IMG/VR virus record: IMGVR_UViG_3300024243_001175
Coordinates: 1 to 58,946 of that record
Length of the DNA stretch: 58,946 nt
Strand: one strand, 5' to 3'
Source: a virus
Shown here: positions 32,299-58,797 of the stretch, piece by piece
Numbering within the stretch: position 1 is the first letter of the stretch
How the letters are laid out: each line of letters begins with the position of its first letter
Notes under the pieces: model-generated
Database searches by the model: none
Told to the model about the DNA's origin: nothing
What the model saw: only the letters and a program-made list of their open reading frames with translations
Translations under genes and position numbers: made by a program

Positions 32299-32312
32299 AA
32301 CCAATATATTTT

Positions 32313-33340: not shown

Positions 33341-33346
33341 ATAAAT

Positions 33347-33360: not shown

Positions 33361-33362
33361 GT

Positions 33363-33399: not shown

Positions 33400-33406
33400 A
33401 TTGTCT

Positions 33407-36752: not shown

Positions 36753-36812
36753 TAAAAGGTTAAAGTGCAAAAAATGCACATTAAGGATATTAACACTTAA
36801 AATAGGATAGAT

Positions 36813-37685: not shown

Positions 37686-38713
37686 TGTTTGTAATTTATA
37701 TAAATGATCATCTGTGAAATAAAAAAACTCAGATATTTGAGATAAATAAGCTAGAAATAAGACAAAAATTAAATGATATTTCTAGTGCTAGTTTTGAAGT
37801 TTCAAATACAGCTAAAACAAACTCATATAGTAATTTTAAAGAATTTAATGAGGTTTTAATATATAAGATTGATCAAAGCGAAGAAAAGCTAATATTTGAT
37901 GGAATTATAAGAAGTGTAGAAGCTGATTTATACAAAACAAAAGTGATTTTAAATGATAAGATATTTTTATTTAAAAATAAGATTTTATACACCGATAAAT
38001 CATATACTAATACTCAGATTAAATCTATATTAATTGATGTTTTAGATGTAATAAATTCTAGATATGACACAAGAATAACACTGAGTTCAGATATACTAGA
38101 TCAAGTAACTAAAACTTATAAAAAATGACAAACATTTTTTGATATATTAAAAGATCTAGCTTTAAATTGATATGAATTTAAGATAAAAAATAATATTTTA
38201 TATTTTTTGAATTCTATATGAGAAGATAAAAGTAGTTGAGTTAACTTTGTAGAATTTTCTTATGATATACAATTCCCATGAAGTAGAACTATAGATACGG
38301 CAAGATTAGAGTATGATAGTGAAAATATATCTAATGCAGTAATATCAAAAGATACTTGAAATTCTGAGGATTTACCAAGCATAAATAATTTTTGAAGATT
38401 AGAAAAATACTTTATTTCATGAGATAAAGATACTTTATTATCAGATAGAAAAGAGTCAATAAGAGAACTTGAAATAACTCCTGTAGCTCATGACTTCTTT
38501 GTCGCAAATTTGTGAGATATAGTAAAAGTATTTATAGATGCTTGAAATGATATAATGCAATTTGATTCTAATTTAAAAATAGTTGAAAAAGAATTTAGAT
38601 CATGAGAATTAAATAAAGTAAAAATAAAGCTGAGTAAATGAAATGTAAAAACTTTAAATCTAATAGAAACTATTGCTGATTTAAAAAATAGAACTAAAAC
38701 TCTTGAGATATAA
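37685..38713 (+). CDS. Tail/baseplate protein (Gp37-like)
   Basis: 342 residues. MFVIYINDHLGNKKTQIFEI, RQKLNDISSASFEVSNTAKT, and FVEFSYDIQFPGSRTIDTAR resemble tail hub or Gp37-like tail proteins. The stop overlaps the run of A before element copy 6. Starts one base inside the Dit gene. Confidence 0.7.
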
Positions 38714-38715
38714 AA

Positions 38716-38729
38716 GACCTTGAGGGGAA
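38716..38729 (+). promoter_or_regulatory. Late-operon element, copy 6
   Basis: GACCTTGAGGGGAA, preceded by AAAA, 2 bases after a stop codon and 47 bases before the fibre gene. Confidence 0.75.
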
Positions 38730-38734
38730 AAGAA

Positions 38735-38765
38735 GTAGCTGTAATATTTTTGCAGTTATTTTTTT
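38735..38765 (+). terminator. Hairpin/terminator after element copy 6
   Basis: GTAGCTG (38735-38741) pairs with CAGTTAT, followed by seven or more T. Confidence 0.7.
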
Positions 38766-38776
38766 ATATAGATTCA

Positions 38777-40996
38777 ATGCAAAGAGTTGCTTTATTAAAC
38801 TGAGAAAATATAAGTCAGGATTATGATCTAGCTAAGATATTTAAATCATTAGCAAGTTCATGAGTTGTAGAATGACTTGAAGTACAAACTTGAAAAGTAA
38901 CAGCTGGTTATGGATTTATTGATGTGACTAGAGATTCAGAAACTTTTCCTATATTATTTCAAAATACTGCAGAGTTAGTTATTGATACAACTTGAACTAA
39001 AAAAGTATTCATAGAAATAACTCAAGCAAATGTAGATGATTGAATAAATAATAGTTCAAATTGAACATGAATATGAGAAATAAAAACAGCAGTAAGTTAT
39101 CCATTAAGTAATTATATAAAACTAGCAAGTATTACATCTTGAGTTATTACAGATGAAAGAGAATTTATTGATCTAAAAAATCCTCTAGTAACAAAAATGT
39201 GAAATGCTTTTAATTGAGTAAATCAATTAATTAAAACAGATGAAAACTGAAAACTTCCTGCTTTAGATGGTAGCAATATTACATGATTACAAGCTGAGGT
39301 AAATAGTACAAGTTTAAAATATATGTTATGAGATCCTTGAGTAGTTTGAAAGGCTTATAGTTTAGTTGATTACGAGCAAACTATTTACTGAACATCTAAT
39401 AATTTTTGAAGTATAGCTCAACCTAAAATATCACAAAGTTTTTTTGCTCAGTGAGATATAGATTTCAATAATTTCAAATTGATGCTTAAAAAAGTGTCAT
39501 CTCCAAGTGATTGAATTATTGTAACAATTGAAACTGATAATGCTTGAAGTCCTAGTTGAATATTAGCACCAAACTGAGTATCTGATACTGTTTCATATAC
39601 TTCTATTTGAACAAATTTTACTGAGGTTTCATTTAATTTTACAAATATTCCAGTTCTTAATACAGAGGAATATTATCATATTGTAATAAAAAGAAGCTGA
39701 GCAAATGATGCTGTAAATTATTATTCAATTTGAAGTGCTTGAAGCGATAGACAAATTTGAGAGTGTAAAACTCATAATTGAAGTACTTGGTCAGCCATAA
39801 GTGATGATTTATATTTTAAAATACCTTGATATAAACTTTTAATTTTATGATGAACTAATTTTATTTGAATATTACAAATAGCTTGAAGTGTCTGACAATT
39901 TAGAAAAGCTAATACTTCATACGATAATAATCAAAGCTGATTAATTCCTTGAAATTACTACACATATGATATATCAACTTGAAATCTAACTACTTGAAAT
40001 GACTTAAGAGCAATTAGTGAAACTGAAATAGCATTTGATTCTAGTGCATTATGAATAGATCTATTTTATTGAAACTGATGAGATTGAGATTTAGAAGTCT
40101 TATCATGAACAACTAATCTTCCTTTTTGAGTATATAATTATTCAAGTATTAAGGTTGCTTCCTGAGCTACCTTGCAAATTACAGGTAGTAACTCAACTTT
40201 AGAATTGTACTGTAGTAGATTGTGTGAAATAGATGGAACTGTGAGTCTTGTTTGATTATGAAATGATGGAAGTAAGGTTTTATTTAATGGTTCTACATTA
40301 ACACCTTGAAATTGATGAAGTTGAGGTGCATGATGAAACTGAGGTAGTCATAGTATAAATGGATATTTAGCATGAGCCAGTTGATGAGCATGAAGTGGTG
40401 CATGATATGGTTGATGATGAGGTTGAGGTGCTGCTGATTCACAAAGTTGAGGATCAGGTTGAGCAGGTTGATATCCTTGATGATTATGAGGATATGGTTC
40501 TTGTGATAATTCAGGATGAGATGCTTATTGAAATCCATGATCAAATGCTAATTGGAATTGAACATATACTCAAAATTCATGATGAACTTCTGCATGATGA
40601 AGTGGGTGATGTAGTAATGGTGCTTGATGAGGATGATGAGCAGGTTGAACATTATGATGAAAATGATGAAATATAATAATAAGAGCAAATGAAATAAAAT
40701 GAACTTGAACAATAACATTACAGTGATCAAGTGGTTGAAGTTGATGAAAATGATGAAATTCTGGTGCATGATGAGGTTGAGGATGATGAGGATGATGATG
40801 AGGTGGTTGAGGTTGAGGATGAGCTATAATTTGTACTACAAATAGTTCAAATTACAATTTGATAAGTAATTGATGAAGCTGAGGTTCTTGATGAGTTTGA
40901 GGTACTGCTTCAGGATCATATAGTCCAACAAATTGAAGTAATTGAAATATTTGAACATCATGAAGTTCTTGAACTTTTAGTCTTATAATTAGATAA
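38777..40996 (+). CDS. Tail fibre with glycine-rich C-terminal domain
   Basis: 739 residues. N-terminal attachment region (about 1-180, ending in NGKLPALDGSNITGLQAEV). The middle beta-rich domain (about 200-400) contains VVTIETDNAGSPSGILAPNG-like carbohydrate-binding features. From about residue 509 to the end glycine dominates, including an uninterrupted run of 18 glycines encoded at 40769-40822, 11 of them UGA. Receptor binding is the likely role. By hand count about 70 UGA codons occur in the final 230, so it can only be made under code 25. Confidence 0.85.
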
Positions 40997-40998
40997 AA

Positions 40999-41412
40999 AT
41001 GGAATTAAATATGAATACTCTTAGTAAAGAGCAAAAAAAACTTATAGATATGTGATATACAGCATATATAAATGAAGAAAATAAAATAGTTTTGGATGAA
41101 CCTGCAATAATTACTGATGAAATAAAAGAATATAAGATATGAATAATAAATAAGCAATTCCAAGATAGGATAGATCAATTTACAGCTTGATATTCTCAGG
41201 CTGAAATTGATACTTGGCAAACAAAAGTTGAAGAGGCAAAGAAAGTTCAAGCCTGAGAAGTCTCTGATTTATTAAATGGTCTAATTATTGAATGAGAAAC
41301 TGTAGAAGATTTAGCTTCAAGTATTTTATTAAAAGCTGAGGAATATTCGAATATCTACTTATTTGCTGAAAAAAGAAAAAGAGAAGATATTAAAGCATTA
41401 GAAATATTATAA
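40999..41412 (+). CDS. Tail fibre-associated protein (DUF4376-like)
   Basis: 137 residues. DRIDQFTAGYSQAEIDTWQT then VEEAKKVQAGEVSDLLNGLI and LASSILLKAEEYSNIYLFAE match the 'ysxxExxsWxxQxxEA' pattern of small proteins encoded after tail fibres. Possibly a fibre assembly factor. Two bases after the fibre stop. Confidence 0.65.
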
Positions 41413-41432
41413 TTAACTTTTAATACTAAAAA

Positions 41433-41690
41433 ATGATTGAAACAACATATGAACATACTATGTCTTGAGAATGGGAAAGACCAGTAATAGTAGATTGAAA
41501 ATGAAGTAAAGTATGGTACTCATCATATTCACTATTAACAAGTAGTAATATTGATTATAGATGATCTGAATGACAGGCTGAATTCAAACTTAGAAGAAAT
41601 AAAATTAAGTCTTGAAGTGGTAAAAAAACAAATGTATTCCCAATAGAAGTAAAAGGTAGTGGAACTCTAGAAATTTTAGTTGGTAATTAA
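41433..41690 (+). CDS. Small tail-region protein, 85 residues
   Basis: Beta-rich, with GEWERPVIVDGKGSKVWYSS and final KVFPIEVKGSGTLEILVGN-like strands. Looks like a small baseplate or fibre-tip domain; no family recognised. Confidence 0.6.
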
Positions 41691-41698
41691 TAAAAAAT

Positions 41699-41935
41699 AT
41701 GTGAGTAGATATTTGATGAGCTGATACTAGCCCTGTATTCCTTATGACTAAGGATGAATTACTTGAATTTATACAAGTAAATAAAGATATGATCTTTTTT
41801 ATAGCTAAAGGTGCTGTAGATGAACAAATACAAACCTTGTTAAATGAATGAACTACAACTTTGAATGAAGAGCAAATAACAGTAGTAAATAATATATTAA
41901 CTGAGGTACTAAATAGAATATTAACAAATAACTAA
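41699..41935 (+). CDS. Small phage protein, 78 residues
   Basis: MGVDIGGADTSPVFLMTKDE then helices (ELLEFIQVNKDMIFFIAKGA, VVNNILTEVLNRILTN). No family recognised. Second codon is UGA-Gly, so the start is clear only in code 25. Confidence 0.55.
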
Positions 41936-41940
41936 AAGAT

Positions 41941-42153
41941 ATGTGAAACCATAATGATTTAATATTTGAAAAACTAGAAAAAATATTAGTCCAAACAACA
42001 AAAACTAATTGAAGAGTAAATAGACTTGAAAGTGATGTTAAAAATCATTCTGCAGATATAAAATCAATAAATAAAAGAATTTATATCGCAATGTGAGGTT
42101 TAACTATTCTTTCAATATTTTGAGAGAGAATTATAGAAGCAATAACAATGTAA
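41941..42153 (+). CDS. Probable holin/XhlA-like membrane protein
   Basis: 70 residues. A coiled coil with NGRVNRLESDVKNHSADIKS precedes one membrane segment (IYIAMGGLTILSIFGE), the layout of XhlA/haemolysin-like proteins that cooperate with the endolysin. Located in the lysis region. Confidence 0.65.
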
Positions 42154-42154
42154 T

Positions 42155-42625
42155 ATGAAATATACAACTGCAACACTTAAAAAGAATTGATTACTTCAAA
42201 AAATACCTTGAAGTGATTATTGGATAGTAAAAGAGGAATTTATATGGTTTATTAATTATGAAACCAAACTAAGTTATATAATTATTCCAAAATGATTTAA
42301 AACTAATTTTTGAAGTATTCCTAAGCTACTACAAAGTATTTTTTCTCCAACAAAATATCTAGCATATGTTTTACATGATTATTTATATTCAAAGAAAGCT
42401 AGAATTATATTATCAGATCAGATTGATAGTTTTGATAAAGAAATAAATAGCTTACATGTATCTTTTGAGAACTGAGATAAAACTGAAATATATGCTATTC
42501 CAAATAGAAAGTTTGCCGATAAAACATTAAGAGAAGCTATAAAAGTAGAGTGATGAATATATATTGAAAGACTACTTATTTACTTATGAGTTAGAATGTT
42601 TTGATTTTTAAAATTTAACAAATAA
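42155..42625 (+). CDS. DUF1353-family protein
   Basis: 156 residues. IPKGFKTNFGSIPKLLQSIF and AYVLHDYLYSKKARI, then NRKFADKTLREAIKVEG, match DUF1353, a family of unknown role often found in phage lysis or tail-end regions. Four bases upstream of the nuclease gene. Confidence 0.85.
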
Positions 42626-42629
42626 TCAA

Positions 42630-42971
42630 ATGGAAAAATATATTTATTCTGCAGAAGTTATAAAGGTTTATGATTGAGATACTATAACTGTAAATATTGA
42701 TTTATGATTCAATCATATATGGAAAGACCAAATTATTAGATTATATGGTATTAATACACCTGAACTTAGATGAGAAGAGAAAGAACAATGAAAACTTGTG
42801 AGAGATTTTGTAAGAAATATGATTCTATGAAAAAGAATCATTTTAAAATCTTATAAAGATAAAAAAGGTAAATATTGAAGATGGCTCTGAGAAATCTTTA
42901 TTGATTGAATTAATCTTAACGAGGAATTAATAAAAAGAGGTTATGCTAAAGAATTTATGAAGAAAAATTAA
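42630..42971 (+). CDS. Thermonuclease (SNase-like)
   Basis: 113 residues. EVIKVYDGDTITVNIDLGF, IRLYGINTPELRGEE, and KKGKYGRWLGEIFIDGINLN with NEELIKRGYAKEF match staphylococcal-nuclease-like proteins, with the Ca-binding Asp and the Arg/Glu pair present. No signal peptide is visible. Could degrade host DNA during lysis or act with packaging. Confidence 0.88.
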
Positions 42972-43005
42972 TGCGAAATTAATATAAAATTAACATAAAA
43001 TTAAT

Positions 43006-43518
43006 ATGAAAACATATAGATGACTAGATAAACTACATCCTAGATTTAGAAAAAAAGTAGAACTATTTTTAAAAGAAGTTTGAAGTAAAGTCTTTATAAC
43101 AGAAAGTTTTAGAACACAAGCAAAACAAAACTTTTTATATTCACTCTGAAGAACTAGAAAATGAAAGAAAGTTACATGGACTTTAAAATCTAATCATACA
43201 AAATGATTAGCAATAGATATAGCTTTTAAATGAAAAAAACTTTATCCTAGTGATATATATTCTTGGAAAGAAATAGCTGAAATTGCAAAAAAATATGGAA
43301 TAGATTGGGGATATGATTTATGGAAAACAGATAAGCCTCATTTTCAAGATAATATGAAAGAATTTGAGAAAAAAATATTCTTAGATGAATCAAGATTTTG
43401 AAAATTTATAAAAGAAAATTTAGAAAATAGTTTTAGATTCAATGATTATTTAGATAATAGACCAGCTTTAATTGCTGATATAAAGGAATTAATTACACTA
43501 TATGATCAAAGAAAGTAA
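43006..43518 (+). CDS. Endolysin, peptidase M15 family
   Basis: 170 residues. TESFRTQAKQNFLYSLGRTR, SNHTKGLAIDIAFKGKKL, and GIDWGYDLWKTDKPHFQD supply the HxxxxxxD and PHF zinc-ligand motifs of D-Ala/L-Ala-type peptidoglycan peptidases. Cleaves cell-wall peptides during lysis. No signal peptide, so a holin is needed. Confidence 0.9.
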
Positions 43519-43593
43519 AATACTTGATTTATTGGTTGAAAAAAAATGAAAAGTGATTATAGTAACCGAGCTTACCAGTCTGTTAAAACTCTT

Positions 43594-43694
43594 GATGAAA
43601 ATCGTATAAAGAGTGGAGAAAGTTAATCTTCCACTTGTTTTATATGATTTTTATCGTATTTTTCAGATGGGTAAGCAGGATTGCTTTCTCCACT
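43594..43694 (+). ncRNA. Candidate structured RNA with alternative hairpins
   Basis: GATGAAAATCGTATA (43594-43608) pairs along 15 bp, with two G-T pairs, with TATATGATTTTTATC (43641-43655), enclosing a hairpin AGTGGA/TCCACT (43612-43617 with 43630-43635). AGTGGAGAAAG (43612-43622) also pairs perfectly with CTTTCTCCACT (43684-43694), which is followed by T5. The two folds are mutually exclusive, like an attenuator. No convincing gene covers 43519-43751; a 35-residue ORF overlaps 43502-43609. Confidence 0.5.
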
Positions 43695-43715
43695 TTTTAA
43701 ATAATAAAAACTTAT

Positions 43716-43740
43716 AGTAAGCAATTTTGCTTACTTTTTT
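43716..43740 (+). terminator. Intrinsic terminator after the lysis genes
   Basis: AGTAAGCA (43716-43723) and TGCTTACT (43728-43735), loop ATTT, followed by T5. Confidence 0.88.
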
Positions 43741-43751
43741 AATGCAAAAAA

Positions 43752-43967
43752 ATGTCAGTTATAGAAAAAGTATTATTTTGATGATTCTTCGTAGTATACA
43801 TGTTTTGAGTATCTATACTTATTTTTAAATATGATTCAAAGGGAGGTATGATACCTAGATGTGCATGACAATGATTTTATGTATATTATGATAATAAAGA
43901 TCAAATGTGTAAATGCTATAGATGATATAAGAGGGTTGAGTGAAAAATATGATGTTTTAAGAGATAA
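43752..43967 (+). CDS. Small membrane/secreted cysteine protein, 71 residues
   Basis: FGGFFVVYMFGVSILIF (about 9-26) is a membrane segment or uncleaved signal; the following 45 residues have four cysteines (RCAGQGFYVYYDNKDQMCKC, GCFKR) and basic charge, likely an extracellular disulphide-bonded domain. Own terminator at 43963. Function unknown. Confidence 0.7.
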
Positions 43968-43988
43968 GTTTTTATACTTATCTTTTTT
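43963..43988 (+). terminator. Intrinsic terminator
   Basis: GATAAGT (43963-43969) pairs with ACTTATC (43976-43982), followed by T6. The stop codon of the small cysteine protein is inside the stem. The next 100 bases hold only the promoter below. Confidence 0.8.
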
Positions 43989-44027
43989 ATTTTTACTATT
44001 TAGTAGAACTACTACTGAAAAATAAAT

Positions 44028-44055
44028 TTGACAAAAGAAATAAAATTAATACAAT
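44028..44055 (+). promoter_or_regulatory. Promoter of the restriction-modification operon
   Basis: TTGACA (44028-44033), 16-base spacer, TACAAT (44050-44055), the best consensus-like promoter seen in the window, followed about 40 bases later by the half-HsdS start. Confidence 0.75.
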
Positions 44056-44094
44056 GCTAATAACTTCAGTATTTTAACTACTAAGAAATAAATT

Positions 44095-44667
44095 TTGAGA
44101 AAACAAGTTAAAGATATTGCAGTTGTACAGACTTGATTATTTATTCGCACTATAGAAAAAGGTAATGTAACTTATCTCCAAGCTAAGCATTTTAATGATA
44201 ATGGAGAACTAAGAGAAAAACTAATACCTGATCTTAAAAAGAGTAGTATTCAAGATAAGCATATATTGCAGGATTGAGATATTCTTTTCTCTGCAAAATG
44301 AACTAGAAACTTTGCAACTGTATATAGGTCTGATTATTGACCATGTGTAGCTTCTTCTACATTTTTAGTTATAAGATTAACTAATAAAAATTATATACCA
44401 GAATTCTTATCTTTGATATTAAATAATTTTATGAGTTCAGATTATTTTAGAAAATATAATCTTACTTGAACAACAGTAAAATCAATATCAAAAAAGATAA
44501 TAGATGAATTTGAAATATGAAATATAAATATAGAAGAGCAGGAAAAATTATTAAAATTAAATAATTTACATAATAAGCAAATAGAGATTTTGCAAGATTT
44601 AACAGAAAAAAAAGATAAACTTATAAATAGTATAATTTTACAATATAACAATAAAGATAATGTCTAA
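44095..44667 (+). CDS. hsdS: Half-length type I restriction specificity subunit (HsdS)
   Basis: 190 residues, a single target-recognition domain with one C-terminal coiled coil. LRKQVKDIAVVQTGLFIRTI, YLQAKHFNDNGELREKLIPD, DGDILFSAKGTRNFATVYRS, and LLKLNNLHNKQIEILQDLTE are typical TRD and helix motifs. No ATG exists; TTG 44095 follows TAA ATT and is the best start. A half subunit could dimerise, or be an alternative specificity module to the full HsdS at 48033. It ends inside the hsdM start. Confidence 0.82.
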
Positions 44668-46189
44668 TAAAGTTACACAAAAAGAAATAAATCAAATTCT
44701 ATGGAGTGCATGTAGTACATTTAGATGAGTAATTGATGCAACTCAATATAAAGATTACATACTAACAATGCTTTTTATAAAATATGTTAGTGATGTATAT
44801 AAAGAAAAATATTCAGAATATTTAACAAAATATAATGGAGATAAAGAAAGGGCAGAATATGCTATGAAGCATGAAAGATTTATAGTGCCTGAAAATTCAA
44901 CTTTTGATTATATATTTGAACATAGAAATGATGTAAAAATTTGAGAAATAATTAATACAGCATTAATAGATTTTGAAGAAGCAAATAGAGAAAAATTAAG
45001 TAGTGAAGATGGGTCATGAATATTTAGAAATATTGACTTTAATAGTAGTAATTTATGAGAATTAAAAGAAAAAAATAAAATATTAAAAGACTTAATATTA
45101 GACTTTAGTAACGAAAAACTAAACCTTACTCCATGACATCTTGAATGAAATGATGTAATAGGAGATTCATATGAATATCTTATAGCAAACTTTGCAAGTG
45201 ATGCAGGGAAGAAAGCTTGAGAATTCTACACACCTTCAGAAGTATCAACACTAGTAGCTAAGCTTACAAAAAGTAAACCATGAGCTCGTATATGTGATCC
45301 AACATGTGGTTCAGGATCGATGTTAATTAAAGCAGGTAGAGAAGTATGATCAAAAGACTTTGCATTATTTTGACAAGAGGTAAACTGAGCAACTTGGGCT
45401 CTTGCAATAATGAATATGTTTTTACACTGATTTGATAATGCAACAATTCGTTGGGGAGATACATTAAATAATCCAAAACTGAAAGAGTGAGATACATTAA
45501 TGAAATTTGATACAGTAGTTGCAAATCCTCCATTCTCTCTAGATAAATGGGGTGCTGATAATGCTGCAAGTGACCAATATAATAGATTTTGGAGAGGAGT
45601 ACCACCAAAAAGTAAATGAGATTGGGCTTTTATATCTCATATGGTAGAAACTACTTATGAATGAACAGGTAAAGTCTGACTTGTAATTCCTCATTGAGTA
45701 TTATTTAGATGAGCAAGTGAATGAAAAATTAGAGCTAAAATGATAGAAGAAAATTTATTGGAAGCTGTAATTTGATTACCTGCAAACTTATTTTTCTGAA
45801 CTTGAATACCTGCTGCAATTTTAGTATTTAATAAAGGAAAGAAAGATAATAATGTATTATTTATAGATTCAAGTAAAGAGTTTGAGGTAGCTAAAAATCA
45901 AAATAAGTTATCTGGAGATAATATAAATCATATACTATCTACTTTTGATAAATTTCATGAATGAAAATTAGAAGCTTGAATAGCTGAAGAAAAATATAGC
46001 TATGTGGCAACTTTTGATGAAATAAAAGAAAATGATTTTAATCTAAATATTCCTCGCTATGTAGATACTTTTGAAGAAGAAGAGGAAGTAGAAATAACTG
46101 AGGTTCAAAAAGATATAAAAGAACTTAATAAAAAACTTTGAGAAACTGAAAAAGAAATGGATAAGTATTTAGAGGAATTAGGATTTTAA
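44660..46189 (+). CDS. hsdM: Type I restriction-modification methyltransferase (HsdM)
   Basis: 509 residues, N6-adenine methyltransferase. The N-terminal HsdM domain has VIDATQYKDYILTMLFIKYV. Motif I is DPTCGSG at 213-219, motif IV is NPPF at 289-292. GEFYTPSEVSTLVAKL precedes motif I, and a C-terminal coiled coil (QKDIKELNKKLGETEKEMDK) contacts HsdS. Overlaps the half-HsdS gene by 8 bases. Confidence 0.95.
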
Positions 46190-46205
46190 TATTTAAATAA
46201 AAAAT

Positions 46206-46715
46206 ATGTTTGATTTTTTTAGCTCACCTGTATTTGTTATTATATGATGAATCTCTACTATTATATTAATAGGAGGTTTAATCTATACAATATATCTCAT
46301 TTTTAAATGAGTATTGCCTGTATTATACAGATTATGAATAGGTTTATCAAAAAGAGAAATAGCAATTTTTGCTGAGGATAAATATGAGGGTTTAAAAAAT
46401 ATATTAGTAGATTCAAATATTTTTAATGAAAAGAATATAATAAAAATTGAAAAGAATGAAATAAAGAAATCAAATGGAATATCAATTTTATTAGTTCATT
46501 GGAGTAGTTTTAAAGACAATATAGACGAAATATTAACTGAAAAAAAACATTCAGATTGATTAATTATTTATGCGCCACAGGAAGAATGATTTATAGATAA
46601 AGAAGATATAAAAAAGTTAAATTGAGAATCAAATTGTATTATAGTTAATTTTAGATGAAGACTATTAAATGATATATTAGTAAGTATGATAACAACAAGT
46701 TATGAAAAAAGATAA
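46206..46715 (+). CDS. Transmembrane protein, probable CBASS-type effector
   Basis: 169 residues. An N-terminal membrane segment or pair of segments lies at about 8-45 (FVIIGGISTIILIGGLIYTI, YLIFKGVLPVLYRLGIG). A soluble alpha/beta domain follows (KREIAIFAEDKYEGLKNILV, ISILLVHWSSFKDNIDEILT, GLIIYAPQEEG) and ends in NFRGRLLNDILVSMITTSYE. The gene overlaps the CD-NTase start by 14 bases, the usual layout of effector plus cyclase in CBASS. Effector role is inferred from pairing and topology. Confidence 0.65.
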
Positions 46716-48021
46716 ATTAAATACTCGTTTAAGAGAATATGCAAAATCTCTTTCACCTAAAGATGATGAAAAGGATTTAATGAGTAAAGTTTATAATGCA
46801 GTAAATAATGTATTATGAATAAATAACTGTATTCAAATTTGATCTTATCCTCGTTATACTTCCATAACTCCAGTACATGATCTAGATGTATTATATATAT
46901 TATGAGAATGGAATGAAAATTCTCATAATCCTTTAAATACATTGATTGACTTAAATAATAAATTAATTAGTGATTTTGATAATCCTACAAAATACAGTAT
47001 TAAAATTTCTCAACAAACCCACTCTGTTACAATTTCTTTTCAAGAAAATAATGAAGAAAAATTTTGATTAGATATTGTACCTGCATATATTTTTAATAAA
47101 AATGAGTTTTGATTAGATAAATATAAAGTTCCTGAAATTATCAATATATCTCATAAAAATAGAATAAAAAAATATAAGAAATTAACTGAATCGCATGAAG
47201 AAATGTGATGGATTAATTCAGATCCAAGATGATATATAAAAATTGCTTCTGAATTAGATTCAGCTACAAGGTGAGAATTTAGAAAAAGTGTTAAATTAAT
47301 AAAAAATTGGAAAAACAATTTATGCAATAGTGATGAAAATCTGAAATTAAAATCATTTCATTTAGAACAAGTAATAACTAACTTTTTTAGAGAAAATAAT
47401 GATCTAGAAATTTTCGATGCAGTTTTTAATTTTTTTATTGAATTGCCAAATATTATTGCAAGACCTAATCAGATTTCTGATAGAGCAAATTCTGATAAAT
47501 ATATTGATGATTATTTAGTAAAATTAACACAACAACAAAAAAATAAAATTATATTAGCTAGGGATTGCTTACTAATAAAATTAGAAAATATTTCTTCTAA
47601 CGATAATATTAGAAACATTTTTGATATATGCTACTATGAAAGAGTTTGACCTGAAGAAAAATTTTTATTCGACCAGAAAATTCCAGTTTGTACCGATTCA
47701 AATTATTCTTTTAAAATTTGTGGGAATGTTCATCAAAGAGATTGATTTAGAGCATTTGTATTAGATGTTTTATGAATAATTAGTATTGACAGAAAAATAA
47801 CATTTTGAATTGAATGAAATCAGCCAAATGTAGACTTATTCAAGTGGAAAGTTAGAAATGATAGCAATTGTGATAGTCCTAGAGGAGAAATTACTGATCA
47901 TAGGACATTAAGAGAACCTGAGCATACAAAATATTGATGAAATCATTATGTCGAATGTTATGCTATATTAAATAATGTATGTGTAGCAAAAGAAAAACAA
48001 AATGTAAAATTAAATAAATAA
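46702..48021 (+). CDS. CD-NTase (cGAS/DncV-like nucleotidyltransferase) with AGS-C sensor domain
   Basis: 439 residues. The nucleotidyltransferase motif GSYPRYTS begins at 47, with HDLDV giving Asp60 and Asp62, and the third acidic residue is GLDIVPAY (Asp124). A helical domain follows. The C-terminal 105 residues carry the AGS-C pattern: WKVRN, SPRGEITDH, HTKYGGNHYVECYAI and NVCVAKEKQNV, a domain proposed to sense a ligand in defence nucleotidyltransferases. Likely makes a cyclic oligonucleotide that activates the preceding membrane protein. Sits between hsdM and hsdS. Confidence 0.85.
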
Positions 48022-48032
48022 CTATATAAAAT

Positions 48033-49301
48033 ATGCAAAAAGAACTTACTATTAAACCATGATATAAAAATATTCCTCATATATGAGAAATTCCTGAAGA
48101 TTGGGAAGTTAAAAATTTATGAAATATTTGAGAATTTAAAACTAGTAGCGTTGATAAAGTTATTGTTGAATGAGAAAAAATTGTTAATTTATTAAATTAT
48201 ATGGATATTTATAGGAATAGACTTATAAATAATAAAATAGAATTTACTAAAACTTCTGTAAATGATAGACAATTAGAATCAAGTAATCTTACAAAATGAG
48301 ATATATTATTTACTCCTTCATCTGAAACAGCTGATGATATATGACATTCAGCCGTTGTAGAATATGACTTAATTGATACAGTTTATAGTTATCATGTAAT
48401 GAGATTTAGATTAGATGATCAAGAAACCTTAGATAACACTTTCAGATGATATGTGTTTAATAATCAAATGATTAAAAAAGAGTTTTCTAAGAGAGCTACT
48501 TGAAGCACAAGATTTACTTTATGAAAAAAAGACTTTGAAGATTCAATTTTTGCTTATCCCAAAAATATATTAGAGCAACAAAAAATTGCAAATATTTTAA
48601 AAACTTCTGACTCTCAAATAGATATTACTAAAAATATCATTAAAAAAATTGAATTAAGAAATAAATGATTACAACAAAAACTTCTTAGTTGAAAAAAAAG
48701 ATTAGATTGATTTAGAGATGAATGGAATGATATACAGATGAATGATTGTTTAAATTATGTACCTAGATGAATTCCAAAGCCCTTAGATAAATATTTAGCT
48801 TTATGAATTAGAAGTCATGGTAAATGAATTTTTCATAAACCTGACTCAGATCCAAAAAATATAGCTATGGAAGAATTATTTGTAGTAAAAGAGAATGACT
48901 TAGTTGTTAATATTACATTTGCATGGGAACAAGCTGTTGCAATAGCTTCTAAAGAAGATGAGTGATGATTAGTTTCTCACAGATTTCCAACTTATACTTT
49001 CAAAAAGGATAAAGCAATTCATGAATATTTTAAATATTTAATTATTCAGAAAAAATTTAAATATATGCTTGATTTAATATCTCCATGAGGAGCATGAAGA
49101 AATAGAGTATTGAGTAAAAAAGAATTTTTAAAAATGAAAGTCAATGTTCCTTGAGTGGAAGAACAAAAAGCAATTGCTGATGTATTAAATAAAGCAACTG
49201 AGCAACTAAATTTTTATAAAAATAAGTTAGAAAAATTAGAATTTACAAAGAAAGGACTTATGCAACAACTTTTAACTGGTAAAACTAGAGTAAACTTTTA
49301 A
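48033..49301 (+). CDS. hsdS: Type I restriction specificity subunit (HsdS), full length
   Basis: 422 residues with two target-recognition domains and two conserved helices ([20 protein letters not shown] near 185 and [20 protein letters not shown] near 375, followed by [20 protein letters not shown]). [20 protein letters not shown] and [20 protein letters not shown] are typical starts of each half. Determines the DNA sequence recognised. Confidence 0.93.
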
Positions 49302-49319
49302 TTATTAACTATATATATT

Positions 49320-49547
49320 ATGGAAAATTACCATCTTACAAAAGACTGAGAAGGGTATAAATTAAAAAAGGAATGAGCTGAAAGATCAACTAAAAAATTT
49401 GATGGAACTAAAGAAGAAGCCTTAAAAGAAAGTATTGCTTTTATGAAAGGTCATTGAGGTTCTCTTAAAATACATAAAAATGATTGAAAATTTCAAGAAG
49501 AAAGAACTTATCCAAGAAGTGCAGATCCTTCAAGTTCAGAATGATAA
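49320..49547 (+). CDS. DUF2188-family small protein
   Basis: 75 residues. YHLTKDGEGYKLKKEGAERS, TKKFDGTKEEALKESIAFMK, GHGGSLKIHKNDGKFQEERT and YPRSADPSSSEG follow the DUF2188 pattern ('VxpxxdGWxVkxegaxrasxxfxTkxEAixxArexaxxxg'). Often carried near restriction or mobile genes. Role unknown. Confidence 0.8.
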
Positions 49548-49567
49548 TATTTTATTAACCAAACAAT

Positions 49568-52500
49568 ATGGCAACAATAAGTTTTTTAGAAGATCATATC
49601 TCTCAAATTCCTGCTTTGCAAATACTTCAAAAGTTATGATATAAATACCTAACACCTGAAGAAGCTCTGGAATTTAGAGGATGAAAAACAAGTCAGGTAA
49701 TACTTGAAAGTGTTCTTCGTGAACAATTACATAAAATCAATAAACTTAGCATTAGTTCAACAAAAACTAGTGCTTTTAGTGATTGAAATATTGAAAAGGG
49801 TATTTTAGCATTAAAAGAATTACCTTTTAATGAATGATATATAAGTGCATCTGAATATGCATTTAATTTACTTACTCTTTGAAAAACACTTGAACAAAGC
49901 GTTGATTGAGATAAGAAAAGTTATAATTTACAGTTTATTGATTGGGAAAATATAGAAAATAATGTTTTTCATGTAACTGAAGAATATGAAGTTCTAAGAA
50001 CTTGATCTAAAAAAAGTTATAGACCTGATATTGTTTTATTTATAAATGGTGTCCCTATTTGTGTTATTGAATGTAAAAGACCTGATATGAAAAAGCCTAT
50101 TGAACAGGCTGTATCACAACATTTAAGAAATCAACAAGAAGATTGAATAAGATCTTTGTATGTATATTCTCAATTACTTATGAGTATAGCAACAAATCAA
50201 TCTCTTTATTGAACTACTTGAACTCCTGAAGAGTTTTGGGCTCATTGGAATGAAAAATTTGAATCTGAAAAAGATGAGAATAATTATAAGGAAAAATTAA
50301 ATAAACTAAAAAATAAACATCTTTCAATTAATGAAAAAGATAGAATGTTTTGAGATAGATTTAAATATGTTAGAAATTATTTTGATAATCTAGAAAAAGA
50401 AGAAGTTTTATCAACTTTACAAGATGAATACCTTGTAAATTTATGTGAACCAAAAAGATTATTAGATCTTATATTTGGATTTGTTATTTATGATGATTGA
50501 ATCAAGAAAATAGCGAGATATCAACAATATTTTGCTATAGAGAAAACAATGAAAAGAATTTCTAATGTAAGTTCTTGAAAAAGAAAAGGTTGAGTTATAT
50601 GGCATACACAATGAAGTTGAAAATCACTTACTATGGTTATGTTAGCTCAAGCTCTTATTTCTGATGAAAAAATTAAAAATCCTAAAATTATTCTAGTTAC
50701 AGATAGAACTGATTTAGATATTCAAATCTCTGAAACATTTAAAAAATGTTGAGTTGTAGTAAATAAAGCTAAAACAGGTAAAGATTTAGTTGAATTATTA
50801 GAAAGTACAAGTGATGCAGTTGTTACTACCGTTATTAATAAATTTGAGGCTGCAGTTAAAAAGATAAAAAATCCATTAACTTCACATGATATATTTGTTT
50901 TAATTGATGAGTGACATCGTACTCAGTATGGTAATTTTAATATTCAAATGGAAAGAACTCTTCCAAATGCATGTTTTATTGCTATGACTTGAACTCCTTT
51001 AATGAATAAAGAAAAAGATACAGCTAATAAATTCGGTTGAATTATTGATGCTTATACTGTTGATCAGGCTGTTGATGATAAAGCAGTTGTTCCTTTACTT
51101 TATGAGGGAAGATATGTAGAACAAAAAGTAAATTCAAGAGCTATTGATCTTTATTTTGAAAGAATTTCTAAAGATTTATCAACTAAGCAAAAAGCTGATT
51201 TAAAAAAGAAACATAGTCGTGCAGATCATTTAAATATTGCTGATCAAAAAATTAATGCAATTGCTTGGGATATAAGTCTTCATTATGAAGAAAATTGGCA
51301 ATGAACTTGATTTAAAGGTCAACTAGTATGTCAAAATAAAGAATCAGCTATTAAATATAAAAAATATTTAGATGAAATCTGAATTGTAACCTCTGATGTA
51401 GTTATTTCTTCACCTGATGATAGAGAATGAGAAGATAGTGCTTATGAAAAGTCTGAAGATCTTATTAAAAGATTTTGGGATCGTATGATGGATGAACATG
51501 GAAATACTAAAAAATATAATGATAATATTATTAGTAGATTTAAAAATAAAAAAGATCCTGAAATAATTATTGTTGTTGATAAATTATTAACAGGTTTTGA
51601 TGTTCCTAAAAATGTTGTTTTATATTTAACTAGAAACTTGAAAGCTCATACTTTATTACAAGCTATAGCTCGTGTTAATAGAGTAGCTGAAAATAAAGAT
51701 TATGGTTATATTATTGATTATTATGGTGTATTATCTGAATTAGATGAAGCATTAAAACATTATTCTTCAGTAGATGATTTTGATAGTAAAGATTTAAAAG
51801 ATACTTTTACTAATATTGATATTGAGATTGAGAAATTACCTCAAAGACATTCAGATGTATGGGATGTATTCAAAACCATAAAGAATAAACATGATTTAGA
51901 GGCTTTTGAGCAATACTTAAGAGATGATGAAAAAAGAGAAAATTTTTATGCAAAATTAAGAGATTTTTGAAAAACCTTAAAAATAGCTCTTTGATCTATT
52001 AAATTTCATGATAATGAAGATCCTGAAATTGTTGATAAATTTAAAGATGATATGATTATGTTTTATAAAATTCGTCAATCAGTTGCTTCTAGGTTTTCAG
52101 ATGAAATAGATTATAAGAAGTATGAATGACAAATTCAAAAATTAATAGATACTCATATTTCTAGTGATGAAGTTAAAACTATTGTTGAAGAAGTAAATAT
52201 ATTTGAAAAAGATAAGTTTGAAACTGAATTAGAAAAAAAAGAATGAGAAGCTGCAAGAGCTGATACTATTGCTTCTCGTACATCAAAGCATATTAATGAG
52301 AAAATGGATGAAGATCCAGCTTTTTATAAGAAATTTTCTGATATGCTTAAAGATGCTATAAAAGCATATGAAGATCATCGTATAAATGAAACTGAATATT
52401 TGAAAAGAGTTAGTGAAATTATGAATAATGTTTTATTACATAATGATGATACATTTCCTGAAGAAGTTATTTGAAATGATGTTACTAAAGCATTATATGG

Positions 52501-52774
52501 TATTTCTAGAGATTTCTTAAAAGAAAATAATGTTACTGATGAAGATAAGATTAAAGAATTATCTATTAATATAAGTTTACAAGCTGACAATATTTTTACA
52601 AGCATGAGAATAGTTGATTGGCAAGACAATATAGATGTTGTTAAACAAATGAAAATGCAAGTATTTGACATGGTTTATGATGAAATTAAATCTAAATCTA
52701 GTTTAGATATTTGAATTAATTTAATTGATCCTTTTATTGAAAAATGTATATGAATAGCGAAAATCAAGTATTAA
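49568..52774 (+). CDS. hsdR: Type I restriction endonuclease subunit (HsdR)
   Basis: 1068 residues; DNA translocase and nuclease. The nuclease domain has the motif RPDIVLFINGVPICVIECKR near 155-175. Walker A is QGSGKS near 348-353, the DEAD-like box is DEGH at 447-450, and later motifs are VDKLLTGFDVPKN and LLQAIARVNR near 690. Length and order after HsdS are as expected. Its last 31 bases overlap the YgjP-like gene. Confidence 0.95.
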
Positions 52775-53457
52775 CATTTTGATCTAAGGTAATAAAATAT
52801 ACTTTATTACAATTAGATAGAAAAACATTGGATATAGAAGTAACTCCTGAAATGGAGGTTATTGTTCGTGCTCCATTAAATTCTAGATTAGAATCTATAT
52901 TGGATAAAGTAAGAAAGAAAGCTCCATGGATATTTAAACAAATTAATTTTTTTAATGAGTTTCATCCAAAATTAACAGCTAAAAAATATATTACCTGAGA
53001 AACATTTTTATATTTATGAAAGCAATATATTTTGAAAGTAGAGATAACTACTGAGTCTGAAAAAGTTAAATTAAAATGAAAATACTTAATGGTATTTGTA
53101 AAAAATAAAGAAAATTCAGAAAAAGTAGTAGAAAGTTGGTATTTAAAACATGCTAAAGAAAATTTTAAAAAATATAGTGAATGAATTATAAAGAAGTTTG
53201 AGGTTTATAATGTAAAACCTTGAAAAATCTCTATAAGAAAGATGAAGTCAAGATGGGGAAGTTGTAGTAAAAAAGGGAATATAACACTTAATAGTGATCT
53301 TATAAGAGCTCCTAGAGGATGTATTGAATATGTACTAACTCATGAATGTAGTCATTTACTTGAGTACTGACATACAAAGAGGTTTTATGAAATTCAAACA
53401 TCTCAGATGCCTGATTGGGAAAAATGGAAAAATAAATTGGAAAGATTGTTGGCTTAA
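52744..53457 (+). CDS. YgjP-like metallopeptidase (DUF45)
   Basis: 237 residues. RKMKSRWGSCSKKGNITLNS followed by IEYVLTHECSHLLEYGHTKR gives zinc ligands HECSH at 200-204 and a downstream His. Such proteins are frequently encoded directly after hsdR in type I systems; their task there is unclear. The overlap with hsdR suggests coupled translation. ATG 52750 is a second possible start. Confidence 0.9.
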
Positions 53458-53475
53458 TTTTTAATTAGTACATTA

Positions 53476-54252
53476 ATGGATATTTTTAGTATTTTATGAG
53501 CTTGAAGATGAATTTGATCAATAATAGATAAATTTATAGAGTGAGCAAAATGGGGAAAAACACATAAACAAGATGAAGAAAATAAAAAAATCATAAGATC
53601 AAGACTTAGGGGAGTTTTTGATACTCATAAAATTGAAATAGAAAATATTTTCATTGATTTATTAAATGAAATGAAAAGTGAGGTATTGAAAAATGAAAAT
53701 CATGATAAAAAGGATGATAGAAGCAAAACTCTTTTGTTAAATAAAATAGATAAAATAAAAGAATGAAACTTATTGGATAATATTGATAAAACAGGAAATG
53801 AAATAGAAAATAATGATTATATTATTTTTATGTGGAAAACATTTTTTTATGATGAGAATATAAAGACCATAGAAAGTGATTTAAAAATAAACTTAGATAA
53901 TTTTTTAGATTTGTATTTTAGAGAAGCAAAAAATTATTTCTTATCTAATGAAAAAGCCGATATAAATTTATTAATAAATGAAAAATGAGAAATTTTAAAA
54001 TTGCTTGAAATATCAATTATTGAATTTGAAAAACTTATTTTAGTAAAATTACAAGGATTAATTAATTTATCAATCATTGATTCCATCAAACCTACATCAT
54101 CTATTAATGATGATAAAATAAATAATATGATAAAAAATGTTGATAAATTTGCTAATGATATTAAGCAATGAAAAATGAAGAAATATTATGGTAGATTACA
54201 AATTCTTTTAGATAAAATTATCATAGATATGATAAATAAAATTAAAAAATAA
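53476..54252 (+). CDS. Hypothetical helical protein, 258 residues
   Basis: MDIFSILGAGRGIGSIIDKF could be an amphipathic or weakly membrane-associated N-terminus; the remainder is charged and helical (LDTHKIEIENIFIDLLNEMK-like segments). No family recognised. Three bases before the ADP-ribosylglycohydrolase gene, so probably functionally tied. Confidence 0.75.
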
Positions 54253-54254
54253 AT

Positions 54255-55058
54255 ATGTACTGAGCAATTATATGAGATATAATCTGATCAATTTATGAAT
54301 GGGATAATATTAAAACAAAAAAGTTCCCATTATTTCCTAATGGTGTATTTTTTACTGATGATACTGTATTAACAGTGGCAACAACTTATGCTATTTTAAA
54401 TCGTTTAGATTTTTGAGAATCTTATAAGAAGTTTTATAAAGAATATCCTTGAAAATGATATTGATGAAAATTCATAGAATGGTGTGAGAATGATACAAAA
54501 TTATTTGGTATATTTGCTAGAAAACAAAACAGTTTTTGAAATTGATCTGCAATGAGAATTAGTCCTATTTGATATCTTTCTAATAATTTAGAAGAAGTAT
54601 TAAAAATATCTAAAATATCTGCAAAATGTACTCACTGACATAAGGAATGAATAAAATGAGCTCAATCTGTGGCTAGTGCAATATTTTTAGCTAGACAATG
54701 AAAAAATAAAAATGAAATTAAAAAGTTTATAGAAGAAAAATTTTGATATGATTTAAATAGAAAAATTGATGATATAAGGTTAATTTACGACTTTGATGTA
54801 ACTTGTCAGTGAAGTGTTCCTGAATCAATAATAGCCTTTTTAGAATCTAATGATTTTGAAGATGCAATCAGAAATGCAATATCTATTTGATGAGATAGTG
54901 ATACAATTGCATGTATAACTTGATCAATAGCTGAAGCATATTATTGAATACCTAATGATATATTAGAAAAAACTAAAAATTATTTAGACGATGATATGAT
55001 AAAAATACTAGATGAATTTTATAAAAAATATAATATTAATCCTAAAAAATGAATTTAA
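54255..55058 (+). CDS. ADP-ribosylglycohydrolase (DraG-like)
   Basis: 267 residues. MYGAIIGDIIGSIYEWDNIK, FFTDDTVLTVATTYAILNRL, GNGSAMRISPIGYL, KCTHGHKEGIKGAQSVASAI and SIGGDSDTIACITGSIAEAY contain the paired metal-binding aspartates (TDDT; GGDSDT) of the family. Removes ADP-ribose from modified targets. Within a defence cluster it may counter or complete an ADP-ribosylation reaction, though no ADP-ribosyltransferase is visible nearby. Confidence 0.93.
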
Positions 55059-55582
55059 AAACAATTGCAGATATTGATATTTCAAATCAATCTTATGAAT
55101 ATAACTTTCAAACTGATTTAACTGAAAAGCTTGATAGTTTAGAATGAGATTTTTCACAAGAAATATTAAATGAAATAATTTTGTGGAAAGTGAACAGGTA
55201 TGCTTTATTTGATAAAGATACTATAAAATTATTAAATAAACTAGATCACAACTCAATAGAACTAAATAAAGAGTTTACAACTGAGTTATTATGAAAATTA
55301 TTGAATACAAAATGAGTTCAATTAGCTATGGCTACAACAATTTTAAGATTCAAGAATCCATCTATTTATCAAATTATAGATCAGAGAGTATATAGATTTA
55401 TTTATTGAAAGGAAATGGATAGAATTGTATGAAAAAATGATTTGGCTATAAAGTTATATTTAGACTACTTAGAGAATCTTTGAAAAGTTTGTATTAAATA
55501 TAATATTAGTTTTGAGGAATCAGATAGAGTTTTATATGCATTAGATAAAAAGCTAAATAAAAATGTTAAAATTAAATATTAA
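55049..55582 (+). CDS. HhH-GPD-like protein, 177 residues
   Basis: Contains GVQLAMATTILRFKNPSIYQ followed by IIDQRVYRFIYG, recalling the helix-hairpin-helix plus catalytic Asp stretch of HhH-GPD DNA glycosylases ('GvxxxtAsxiLxxxxPxxfpviDxrv'). The glycosylase resemblance is partial and the protein is short. Overlaps the ADP-ribosylglycohydrolase gene by 10 bases; likely the same unit. Followed by about 100 bases of A/T-rich DNA with no gene. Confidence 0.55.
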
Positions 55583-55792
55583 AAAATAAATTAAGTATAT
55601 AATATTTACTGAAAAGTATATCAAAAAATTTTCTTATAATGTTCTATTGTAAAATATGTATTTTTTGTTATACTAAAAATTAGGTATTTTTTAAAAAACG
55701 AATTTTCTTAAATCTAGGTAGTTTTGCCTTAGTTGGTCAGCAAAATCAAAAATAGCCTCATAGAAAAAAGTTCAGCCCATCACCGACTTGTC

Positions 55793-55801
55793 CCACCATT
55801 T
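55793..55801 (+). other. Attachment-site core (right), candidate attR
   Basis: CCACCATTT identical to the tmRNA 3' core at 13761-13769, with flanking partial similarity (GTCCCACCATTT against GCTCCACCATTT). It would bound a 42-kb element. It may at the same time be the left site of a second, older element. Confidence 0.55.
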
Positions 55802-55853
55802 GATTTTTAGACACTTTTGATAGCTCAAAAGCCTGATAAATAAGCGATAAATT

Positions 55854-55877
55854 AAGGGTTCAAACAACCCTTTTTTT
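55854..55877 (+). terminator. Intrinsic terminator within the recombinase 3' end
   Basis: AAGGGTT (55854-55860) pairs with AACCCTT (55866-55872), loop CAAAC, followed by T7, on the plus strand and so opposing the recombinase gene. Its placement beyond the core mirrors that at 13791-13832. Confidence 0.8.
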
Positions 55878-57347
55878 GTTGATTGGAATTCAGCCGGGAA
55901 ATATCATTTTTATAAGGTTTTTCTTATTTTCAATATTCTGAGAATTCCATACTACTAAAGCATTACTTATTTTTTTTAATTTATCTTTTAGGCTGGTTCA
56001 AACATTTTTTAAGTGTCAGAATTTTTTTGTCATTTTTTCAGATAAAATTTCTTTATCTTTTTCTAATATTTCAATTTTTCATTCATAATTTTCTACTAAT
56101 TTTTGACTAGAAGTGTTTCAAATTCTATCAATAAAATTATCTATTTTTTTATCAATATCACTTATTTCTTTTTCTAGTTTATTATGGTTTTGAGTAAATA
56201 TATCTTTTCTATCTTTTAATAGATCTAAAAATATTTCTTCAAAACATTTAACTGTATCTTTTTTAGGAGTAAGAGTTTTTAATATTTCATCAAATTCACT
56301 ATGAAATTTATCTCTATTTATGCTTTTTCACTTTAATGGAGAATTTCTAGGGAATGTATAATATGGAACTTTTCTGTTTCTTCATGTAGCCCATCATCAA
56401 CTAAGCATATATCAAGAGTCTTCACAATATAGATGTCATCTTAAAGGAAAATCATCACTAATATCTTTTCTATTAATGGATGATTCTATTTTTCTTTCAA
56501 CTGGTGACATTGATTTAAGTCTTTTTTGAATTCTTTCATATGTTTTCATTGAGATTAAAGCTTCATGTTTAGCTTTTGTAACTGGTATATCCCATTTTTC
56601 ACATACTAAATTACCAGTATAAAATATATTGGTAGTTATTCAGTGTACATTAGAAGTAGATACAATTCTTCAGTTAGAACTTGTTCATTTAATTTTCAAT
56701 CATTTTTTGAAGTAAAAACTTTGTAATTAATGTAGTGTGTGTAATATTCAATCAGCATATTTTTCTAATCAATTTTTGATTATATTTGCTGTATCAGAGT
56801 CTTTTACAACTATTCTTCATCACTCATTAGCTTCAATAAATTTATATCAAATAGGAACTCTAAAACACCAAAATCATTGTTCTAATCTTGCTTTCATTCT
56901 ACTTAAAACTCTTTGTTTGTTTTTATCCTTTTCATATTGAGAAACTATAACTGAAATATTTTCTTTAAAGTCTCATTCAGGACTTTCTTCAAATTTGAAA
57001 TTGGGACAAGCAAGTTCTACTCATCTCTTTTTAAATTCTGATTTTAATAGTGTATGTACTTGTATATCTCTTGATAATCTATTTAGATCTTCAAAAATAA
57101 CTATATAGTTATTTTTTTTGTTTTTATCTATATATTTAAATAATTCTTGTATAGATTTTCTTTCAAAAAGTCATCCACTAACTCATTCATCATTAAAGAC
57201 ACTTTCAACTGATATTCATAGAGTACCAGTCGCATAATCTCTACATCTTTTTTCTTGTGAACTAAGTCAGTTTCATTCTTTTACTTGTTTTTTTGAAGAT
57301 ACTCTACAATAGATTAATCATTTGATATCCATAATTATTTTTTAAGA

Positions 57348-57494
57348 TTATAATTTTCTTAGGTTTAATATTTTTAATAAATCCTCACTATCAAGGATTA
57401 GCTTAGAAAGAATAATTAAATCTTTTATTATTTTTTGTTTTTCTTCATCTGTATAAGTTTCAGGAAGAAGATCTTTATATTTCTCTACTAACAT
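57348..57494 (-). CDS. Small helical protein upstream of second recombinase, 48 residues
   Basis: MLVEKYKDLLPETYTDEEKQ then KIIKDLIILSKLILDSEDLL; the open frame continues upstream without ATG (LLSYYSLTIGI), so a non-ATG start could add about 15 residues. Basic and helical. Co-directional with the recombinase and ends 15 bases before it. Function unknown. Confidence 0.5.
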   Translation of the reverse strand: MLVEKYKDLLPETYTDEEKQKIIKDLIILSKLILDSEDLLKILNLRKL

Positions 57495-58047
57495 AATTCA
57501 TATTGTTAGTGAGTAATAGGATAATAAATAGACTGTTTTTATTGTTTCAAATATTTAAATTTTTCATGCACAAAAAAATAAGGAATAAACTTTATAGGTT
57601 TATACTCATTTTAAGAGTAAAAAAAGATTAAATAAATAGACTAATCTCTTAAAATTGGAGGATGTTAAAGAACATTTTAGATTGCCTCTTTTCTAAAACT
57701 GCAAAATCATACTATAAAGAAAATTAAATCTGTCAAATATAAATAACGTTAAAATCATTAAAGTAGTATGTAAAATAGAATTCAAAAATCACGAATTCTA
57801 TTTTACTTCAGCAAAACTAAACAGTATCATCGTTTTTTGTCATACTCGTGTTTATCGGCAGGGATAATAATAATGTGTGGCAATTGTAATTTTTGTTTTA
57901 TATTGTAAATATAGAACTCAACTATTAACTAGATAATCATTTTATTACTCAAAATATACAAGTATTCATCTTACTTTTGGTTTCCATACTTTACTTCATA
58001 AAGCCAAAAATTGTTTTACACATACTTTATTTATTAATTTTTAGAAT
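57495..58047. other. Intergenic region without recognised gene
   Basis: Contains several short hairpins and the strong one at 57770-57806. A 21-codon ORF (57662) lies immediately after GGAGG with no spacer, and a cysteine-rich 11-codon ORF near 57874 is too short to support. Likely holds promoters for the divergent genes at 57494 and 58048. Confidence 0.5.
57770..57806 (+). terminator. Strong hairpin, possible terminator
   Basis: GTAAAATAGAATTC (57770-57783) pairs perfectly over 14 bp with GAATTCTATTTTAC (57793-57806), loop of nine. There is no long T-run, so it may be a regulatory or protein-binding site instead. Confidence 0.55.
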
Positions 58048-58413
58048 ATGGAAACTAAGACAAGTTTACTTTGTGATTTATTAGAGTGTGGTTTTTTAGA
58101 TATCAATTATCTTACTGATTTATTAGATGATAATAATATAGAAATAGATCTACAAGATTTAAAGTCAAATTACTGAGATCTTAACATTAACTGGATTATT
58201 TATGATGTTATTTCTCAAATAGCTGAAAGATTTATAGAAGAAAATCAGGATGAAATTGAAAAGATTCTAGATTTATGAGAATTTTGAAATTTATACGATT
58301 ACATGAGTTCTCATGAAATTTATGAGGTTTATACAAATTACATTGATAGTCATTTATGGTTTAAAGATGAAGCAATTCAAGATCTTTTTGAAAATTCAAA
58401 ATATCAGGTTTAA
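58048..58413 (+). CDS. Acidic hypothetical protein, 121 residues
   Basis: METKTSLLCDLLECGFLDIN then NYGDLNINWIIYDVISQIAE and DKGEFGNLYDYMSSHEIYE-like helices; strongly acidic (Asp/Glu-rich), helical, no motif. Acidic small proteins of this kind occur in phages as anti-defence or DNA-mimic proteins, but no evidence links this one. Terminator immediately downstream. Confidence 0.75.
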
Positions 58414-58430
58414 CAACCTGGTATTTTTTT
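58405..58430 (+). terminator. Intrinsic terminator
   Basis: CAGGTT (58405-58410) and AACCTG (58415-58420) with loop TAAC, which is also the stop codon region, followed by a T8 tract. Confidence 0.85.
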
Positions 58431-58797
58431 TATTATGGATGATAAGTAATTAGCAGAGCTAAAAGACCGAGTTTTACTTTTCTAAATCAAAATTTGACTT
58501 ATTATTTTTTCAAATTGTTTGATTTATATAAAAGCAAACGAGCGATATACGAAAATGTTATTTCTTACATTTTGAAGTCTATTTAATTTATCATATTTTA
58601 GTTTCTTTATATTAAAAATTGTAATTTTCAAAAATCATAAGTCAAATTTAATGATTTTTCTGAGAGTTTTATCTTAGATTTGAGTTTATAAAGAAAAGCA
58701 CCAAGCTTCAACCAAAAATGTTATATAAAAAAACAACCATAGGAGATAAACTCCTTATGGGTGTTTTTTGGAATAACTAATTCATTAACTCTGTAAA
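58431..58797. other. Intergenic region with a terminator
   Basis: No supported gene. A 40-codon hydrophobic ORF at 58555-58677 lacks any family likeness. A near-perfect hairpin at 58727-58769 (CCATAGGAG with CTCCTTATGG, extended by A and T runs) is a clear bidirectional terminator next to the insertion sequence. Confidence 0.6.

Follow-up and report, generated by a model that had tools for sequence, protein, structure and literature searches.

This locus raises the question of whether a second recombinase gene beyond a phage marks a second, independent integration at the same tmRNA gene. The window (the whole stretch of DNA that was analysed, 58,946 bases, ending at 58946) is a complete IMG/VR virus record. 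Few long frames are found with the standard code, and it is gene-dense when TGA is read as glycine (table 25). UvrB (753-2936) shares 66-81% identity with Candidatus Gracilibacteria genomes, and the left flank is therefore host DNA of the Gracilibacteria kind; a left-flank protein other than UvrB gave no match in a first scan of the genome contigs. The target gene and the two core sequences are:

13301..13766, plus strand: tmRNA gene, the integration target, with its own CCA encoded (Rfam RF00023, 75.5 bits, E 1.5e-27)
13761..13769, plus strand: core CCACCATTT, the tmRNA 3′ end (CCACCA) plus TTT; phage attL (exact match)
55793..55801, plus strand: second core CCACCATTT, phage right end and element 2 left end (exact match; homology boundary; predicted junction)

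An ARAGORN run left the tmRNA at 13301-13766 undetected. Exactly three copies of CCACCATTT occur in the window (13761 and 55793 on the plus strand, 22205 on the minus strand) against 0.10 expected. The copy at 22205 was discarded as an att site: it lies in coding DNA, as KWW in the small terminase, and relatives carry it at the matching distance, about 8.5 kb from attL, which argues against such a role. Both plus-strand cores sit within the 3′ end of a minus-strand serine recombinase gene of the LSR type, rec1 and rec2 respectively, and are read in different frames (KWW in rec1 versus QMVG in rec2). Some 20-60 bp past each of them a hairpin is followed by seven T:

~13787..13829, plus strand: hairpin and T7 facing the tmRNA, within the rec1 coding end (fold -17.7 kcal/mol, z -3.5)
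~55854..55879, plus strand: hairpin and T7 within the rec2 coding end (fold z -5.1)

From their form, both would serve as terminators behind the tmRNA. The first-pass annotation had seen that the second recombinase repeats the layout of the first (same strand, core in the 3′ end, T7 terminator beyond), and this description is correct.

The first recombinase belongs to a phage:

13755..15191, minus strand: rec1, intact phage LSR, 478 codons (PHROG integrase 8e-62; PF00239 1.6e-19; PF07508 5.8e-15)
13770..55801 (first core end to second core end), no strand: element 1, siphophage-like prophage (phage genes; core at both ends)

In rec1 an N-terminal Resolvase domain is followed by a Recombinase domain, its length falls within about 450-600 residues, and it is probably an active recombinase. 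The integrated gene ends in KWWS*; its closing codons with the stop, WWS*, are read from tmRNA sequence in antisense. Between the two cores lie genes for terminase, portal, tape measure and a virion protein, identifying a siphophage-like prophage. One phage protein (38720-40996) contains 120 UGA-coded glycines and has a very glycine-rich C-terminus. The right end of the phage (44660-55058) carries defence-like cargo with type I restriction genes, of which hsdM and hsdS are separated by a SMODS/AGS-C nucleotidyltransferase gene, as well as a YgjP-like peptidase and an ADP-ribosylglycohydrolase.

Beyond the second core, the following features were assigned to a second element:

55680..57332, minus strand: rec2, element 2 LSR, about 550 codons, those left of 55793 being phage DNA (PF00239 4e-22 in the N-part, PF07508 1.7e-5 in the C-part)
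55794..58752, no strand: element 2, visible part (DNA 77-82% identical to G244:C7)
58048..58413, plus strand: small element 2 gene (METKTSLLCDLLECG...; 84% in G244:C7, 45% in element A of G244:C20)

Resolvase and Recombinase domains are found in the two pieces of rec2, N-part and C-part respectively. It had been taken for a plain second recombinase gene; it is indeed a single frame, but not an intact one, an in-frame TAA at codon 202 (56727-56729) having been overlooked. A 68% identical relative in genome G244 is open at this position, and the TAA could be a sequencing error. Across 288 genomes from the class and 77 from the order, the best matches to rec2 were this relative and three others at 51-52%; all end at residues 513-516, with the core at residue 511. 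Searches of viral contigs with rec2 peptide patterns, and with a pattern for G244-like rec2-arm DNA, gave no match. At the DNA level, 55794-57642 aligns with G244:C7 at 80.5% identity, the alignment beginning inside the core, and it resumes up to 58752, with about 2.6 kb and two genes extra in G244 between. The small METKTSLLCDLLECG... gene belongs to a family common to several LSR elements (58048-58413 here; L081 10099-10464; L192 6968-7273); the family gave no match in PHROG and a Pfam match below threshold only. No core with up to one mismatch was found between the element 2 start and the record end at 58946, and the right end of element 2 lies outside the record. In the G244 assembly the closest relative of rec2 lies away from RNA genes; there (L081 15472-17334) the rec2-type gene ends next to no RNA gene and faces a convergent, unrelated LSR gene.

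Looking for genomes with a single element next to the tmRNA, as the first-pass annotation had advised, yielded one of each kind. Viral contigs yielded four rec1 relatives. In three, the core, in the form AAATGGTGG, continues into a tRNA 3′ end (the contig of L007 stops inside it), and the fourth, L009 in record G292, lies at a tmRNA with attL at 3368 and attR at 47449. Past this attR there are a terminator-like hairpin and an hsdM-like gene, with no recombinase, and G292/L009 thus reads as the phage-only state at the tmRNA. A DNA pattern for the phage arm recovered the four known loci and L094, which was set aside as a chance match in unrelated coding DNA. No attR of the tRNA-Lys relatives G290, G291, G293 and G228 was found on their contigs.

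The converse state is represented by G301/L158, in which a 52% identical rec2 relative stands alone, directly at the tmRNA (52.7 bits). Joining the window flanks without the phage predicts CTAGCTCCACCATTT followed directly by GATTTTTAGACAC (in short form, CTAGCTCCACCATTT followed by GATTTTT); L158 reads CTAGCTCCACCATTTGATTTTTGTCTC, and its junction CTAGCTCCACCATTTGATTTTT matches the prediction for the window before the phage arrived. By this junction, G301/L158 corresponds to the element-2-only state at the tmRNA. The majority of LSRs that are 32-39% identical to rec2 are also at tmRNA. In the window the core stands both at the RNA-gene end (13761) and at the boundary between the elements (55793), and each type of element occurs alone at the tmRNA in relatives (the phage in G292, the rec2 type in G301). 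The phage-free state would be marked by CTAGCTCCACCATTTGATTTTTAGACAC and the free phage attP by CGACTTGTCCCACCATTTATGATAATT.

Two LSR genes, two cores, an element 2 boundary placed exactly at the core and relatives with single elements can all be read directly from the sequences compared. We consider them best explained by two site-specifically integrated elements in tandem at the tmRNA, each with one LSR (probability about 0.9), and the tandem array proposed in the first-pass annotation is upheld by the cores at 13761 and 55793, the element 2 homology starting at the core and the single-element relatives. The core CCACCATTT would contain the crossover point. In the proposed sequence of events the rec2 element enters first, giving tmRNA, CCACCATTT and GATTTTT-rec2 in a row, and its recombinase decays later. 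The siphophage would then enter the same tmRNA/core junction by means of rec1, displacing element 2 by about 42 kb and leaving core 2 between the phage right arm and the element 2 left arm. As attP would overlap the recombinase 3′ end, integration would swap the last codons for antisense tmRNA, and each element would supply its own hairpin-T7 terminator behind the tmRNA.

With B for the tmRNA arm and P and P′ for the arms of each attP, the final array B-core-P′1...P1-core-P′2 is identical for both orders of integration, and hence the array itself cannot tell the order. The claim that element 2 came first and the phage settled between it and the tmRNA therefore stands for the two integrations, while the order has to be deduced from other evidence. 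The phage could have entered at the tmRNA first, with the rec2 element following into the phage attR, which keeps the core in the phage-only relative. We regard this reverse order as unlikely, since rec2 is decayed and rec1 is intact, and since these recombinase groups are nearly always found at an RNA-gene arm, which attR1 lacks. Both points favour an earlier integration of element 2.

If instead only one phage had integrated, rec2 might be the leftover recombinase of an earlier relative of that phage, or a resident host gene behind it. The short visible extent of element 2 (about 3 kb), the broken rec2 frame and the unseen far-end core would all suit such a history. However, rec1 and rec2 come from different LSR groups; the match to G244 extends beyond rec2 itself and includes a linked gene; and LSRs of the rec2 type occur alone at the tmRNA, which speaks against a single phage. 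Moreover, the decayed remnant of an integrated element would still record a former integration. This alternative is quite improbable.

The tandem array is not the only one of its kind. Four further LSR stacks were found, one at a tmRNA, two at tRNA-Glu and one at tRNA-Cys:

G153:C19, tmRNA: two LSRs 30 kb apart, sharing ATCTGGAGA
G244:C20, tRNA-Glu: cores at 38831, 56597 and 67399, giving two delimited elements, far-end core included
G309:C1, tRNA-Glu: LSRs 9.7 kb apart
G208:C80, tRNA-Cys: LSRs 8.4 kb apart

An assembly error at 55793, with two contigs fused through a short repeat common to both, is scarcely credible: two relatives have contigs (G244:C10 and G184:C32) that do start (base 1) exactly at the core, so that assemblers break there, but the usual assemblers are not misled by a repeat of only 9 bp, and similar stacks occur in four other genomes. 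Such contig ends are what one would predict where integrated and free forms, or more than one element, are present together at the site.

The preference for RNA genes extends beyond these stacks. At 43 of the 52 LSR loci examined, a convergent tRNA or tmRNA 3′ end is found no more than 400 bases from the LSR stop codon, and in most of the 43 the stop codon falls inside the RNA gene. This count scores L162 as not adjacent, where by eye the LSR ends in a tmRNA-like 3′ end (L185). Given some tens of tRNA genes per 1.2 Mb, we estimate that about one such adjacency or fewer would be expected by chance. Among about 58 surveyed tmRNA 3′ flanks, each up to 6 kb long, five contained an LSR, all already known from the rec2 search, and none a second LSR; stacks with a long first element escape a stretch of this length. 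No report of this habit of LSRs at RNA genes in Gracilibacteria was found in the open-licence literature.

Closely related recombinases are found at tRNA genes in L182, L183, L008 and L010 (tRNA-Lys in L182 and L183) and at tmRNA in L009 and L185, and these two sets of sites have the short core alone in common. The target has thus switched between tRNA and tmRNA inside one recombinase family. In L183 (G176:C24) the core with tRNA-Lys 3′ sequence occurs three times, at 1209, 1358 and 1507 with a spacing of 149 bp; two of the three copies are partial and all precede a whole tRNA-Lys gene. They are perhaps scars of repeated integration.

The position of attP inside the 3′ end of the recombinase gene has a further consequence, namely that integration exchanges the recombinase C-terminus. 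In the reconstructed circular phage, rec1 runs 33 residues past KWW and reaches 510 residues, compared with 478 when integrated, so that integration truncates the protein encoded across attP:

55691..55792, minus strand: severed tail, the rec1 frame continued in the phage right arm, 33 codons plus stop (reconstructed attP)

As read from the junctions, the exchange follows directly from this arrangement. A rec1-type frame in G292 (L070) runs 34 codons past the core at the same place. When the window and G292 tails were compared anchored at the core, they matched weakly (57 of 20,000 shuffles were as good); in a free local comparison the match was not significant (1445 of 5000). At the seven junctions compared, the recombinase frame runs further without a stop than either alternative frame (p = 0.02), with two short exceptions. 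A severed tail as a universal rule is not supported, the tails of G208 and G153 measuring 11 and 26 residues. Conservation of the tail may hold for the rec1 type and no other, and that it has a regulatory role is a guess. Tentatively, and with some doubt, we suggest that LSRs at RNA genes which carry attP in their own gene might use the tail as an integration sensor for direction or stability, in which case stacking would hand the older recombinase the newer arm as its end.

Serine integrases are prized as tools, and their short sites are difficult to predict. As the LSRs described here mostly end in tRNA or tmRNA genes, their sites are easy to map from sequence. The natural arrays, among them one in which all three cores are present, provide material to test the repeated use of one site, and the exchange of the recombinase tail suggests a way of controlling direction that can be put to the test.

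Several known systems resemble this array in part. Tyrosine-integrase tDNA islands likewise insert at RNA-gene 3′ ends, with terminal direct repeats and reuse of the site; they are ascribed to tyrosine integrases, whereas here there are two LSRs and a 9-bp core, both recombinase genes being of the serine type. The serine integrases of mycobacteriophages are reported not to use tRNA genes (PMC9262239). SCCmec and ECC cassettes (CcrAB LSRs; PMC6222049) are likewise elements with serine recombinases, located at a single conserved gene's 3′ end. They target, in contrast, a protein gene, rlmH, by the joint action of two recombinases, while single recombinases and RNA genes are involved here, with one recombinase per element at the tmRNA in place of a ccrA/ccrB pair at rlmH. 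Several attR sites were seen in 16 of 32 ECC elements, and that study observed no ECCs in tandem with more than one ccr gene (PMC6222049). The tandem prophages T36-2a/b of Mycobacterium abscessus (PMC9934374) have integration-dependent immunity systems, which use tyrosine integrases (PMC9262239), unlike the serine recombinases at the tmRNA described here. BPs-type integration-dependent immunity (PMC9262239) is alike in that attP lies inside a phage gene and integration truncates the protein; there the repressor gene is cut and the integrase is of the tyrosine type (PMC9262239), whereas here it is the serine recombinase gene itself that is cut. Tandem integration is of a known kind, and what is new is that LSRs are combined with RNA-gene targets, with att sites that overlap the recombinase gene, and with stacking that recurs.
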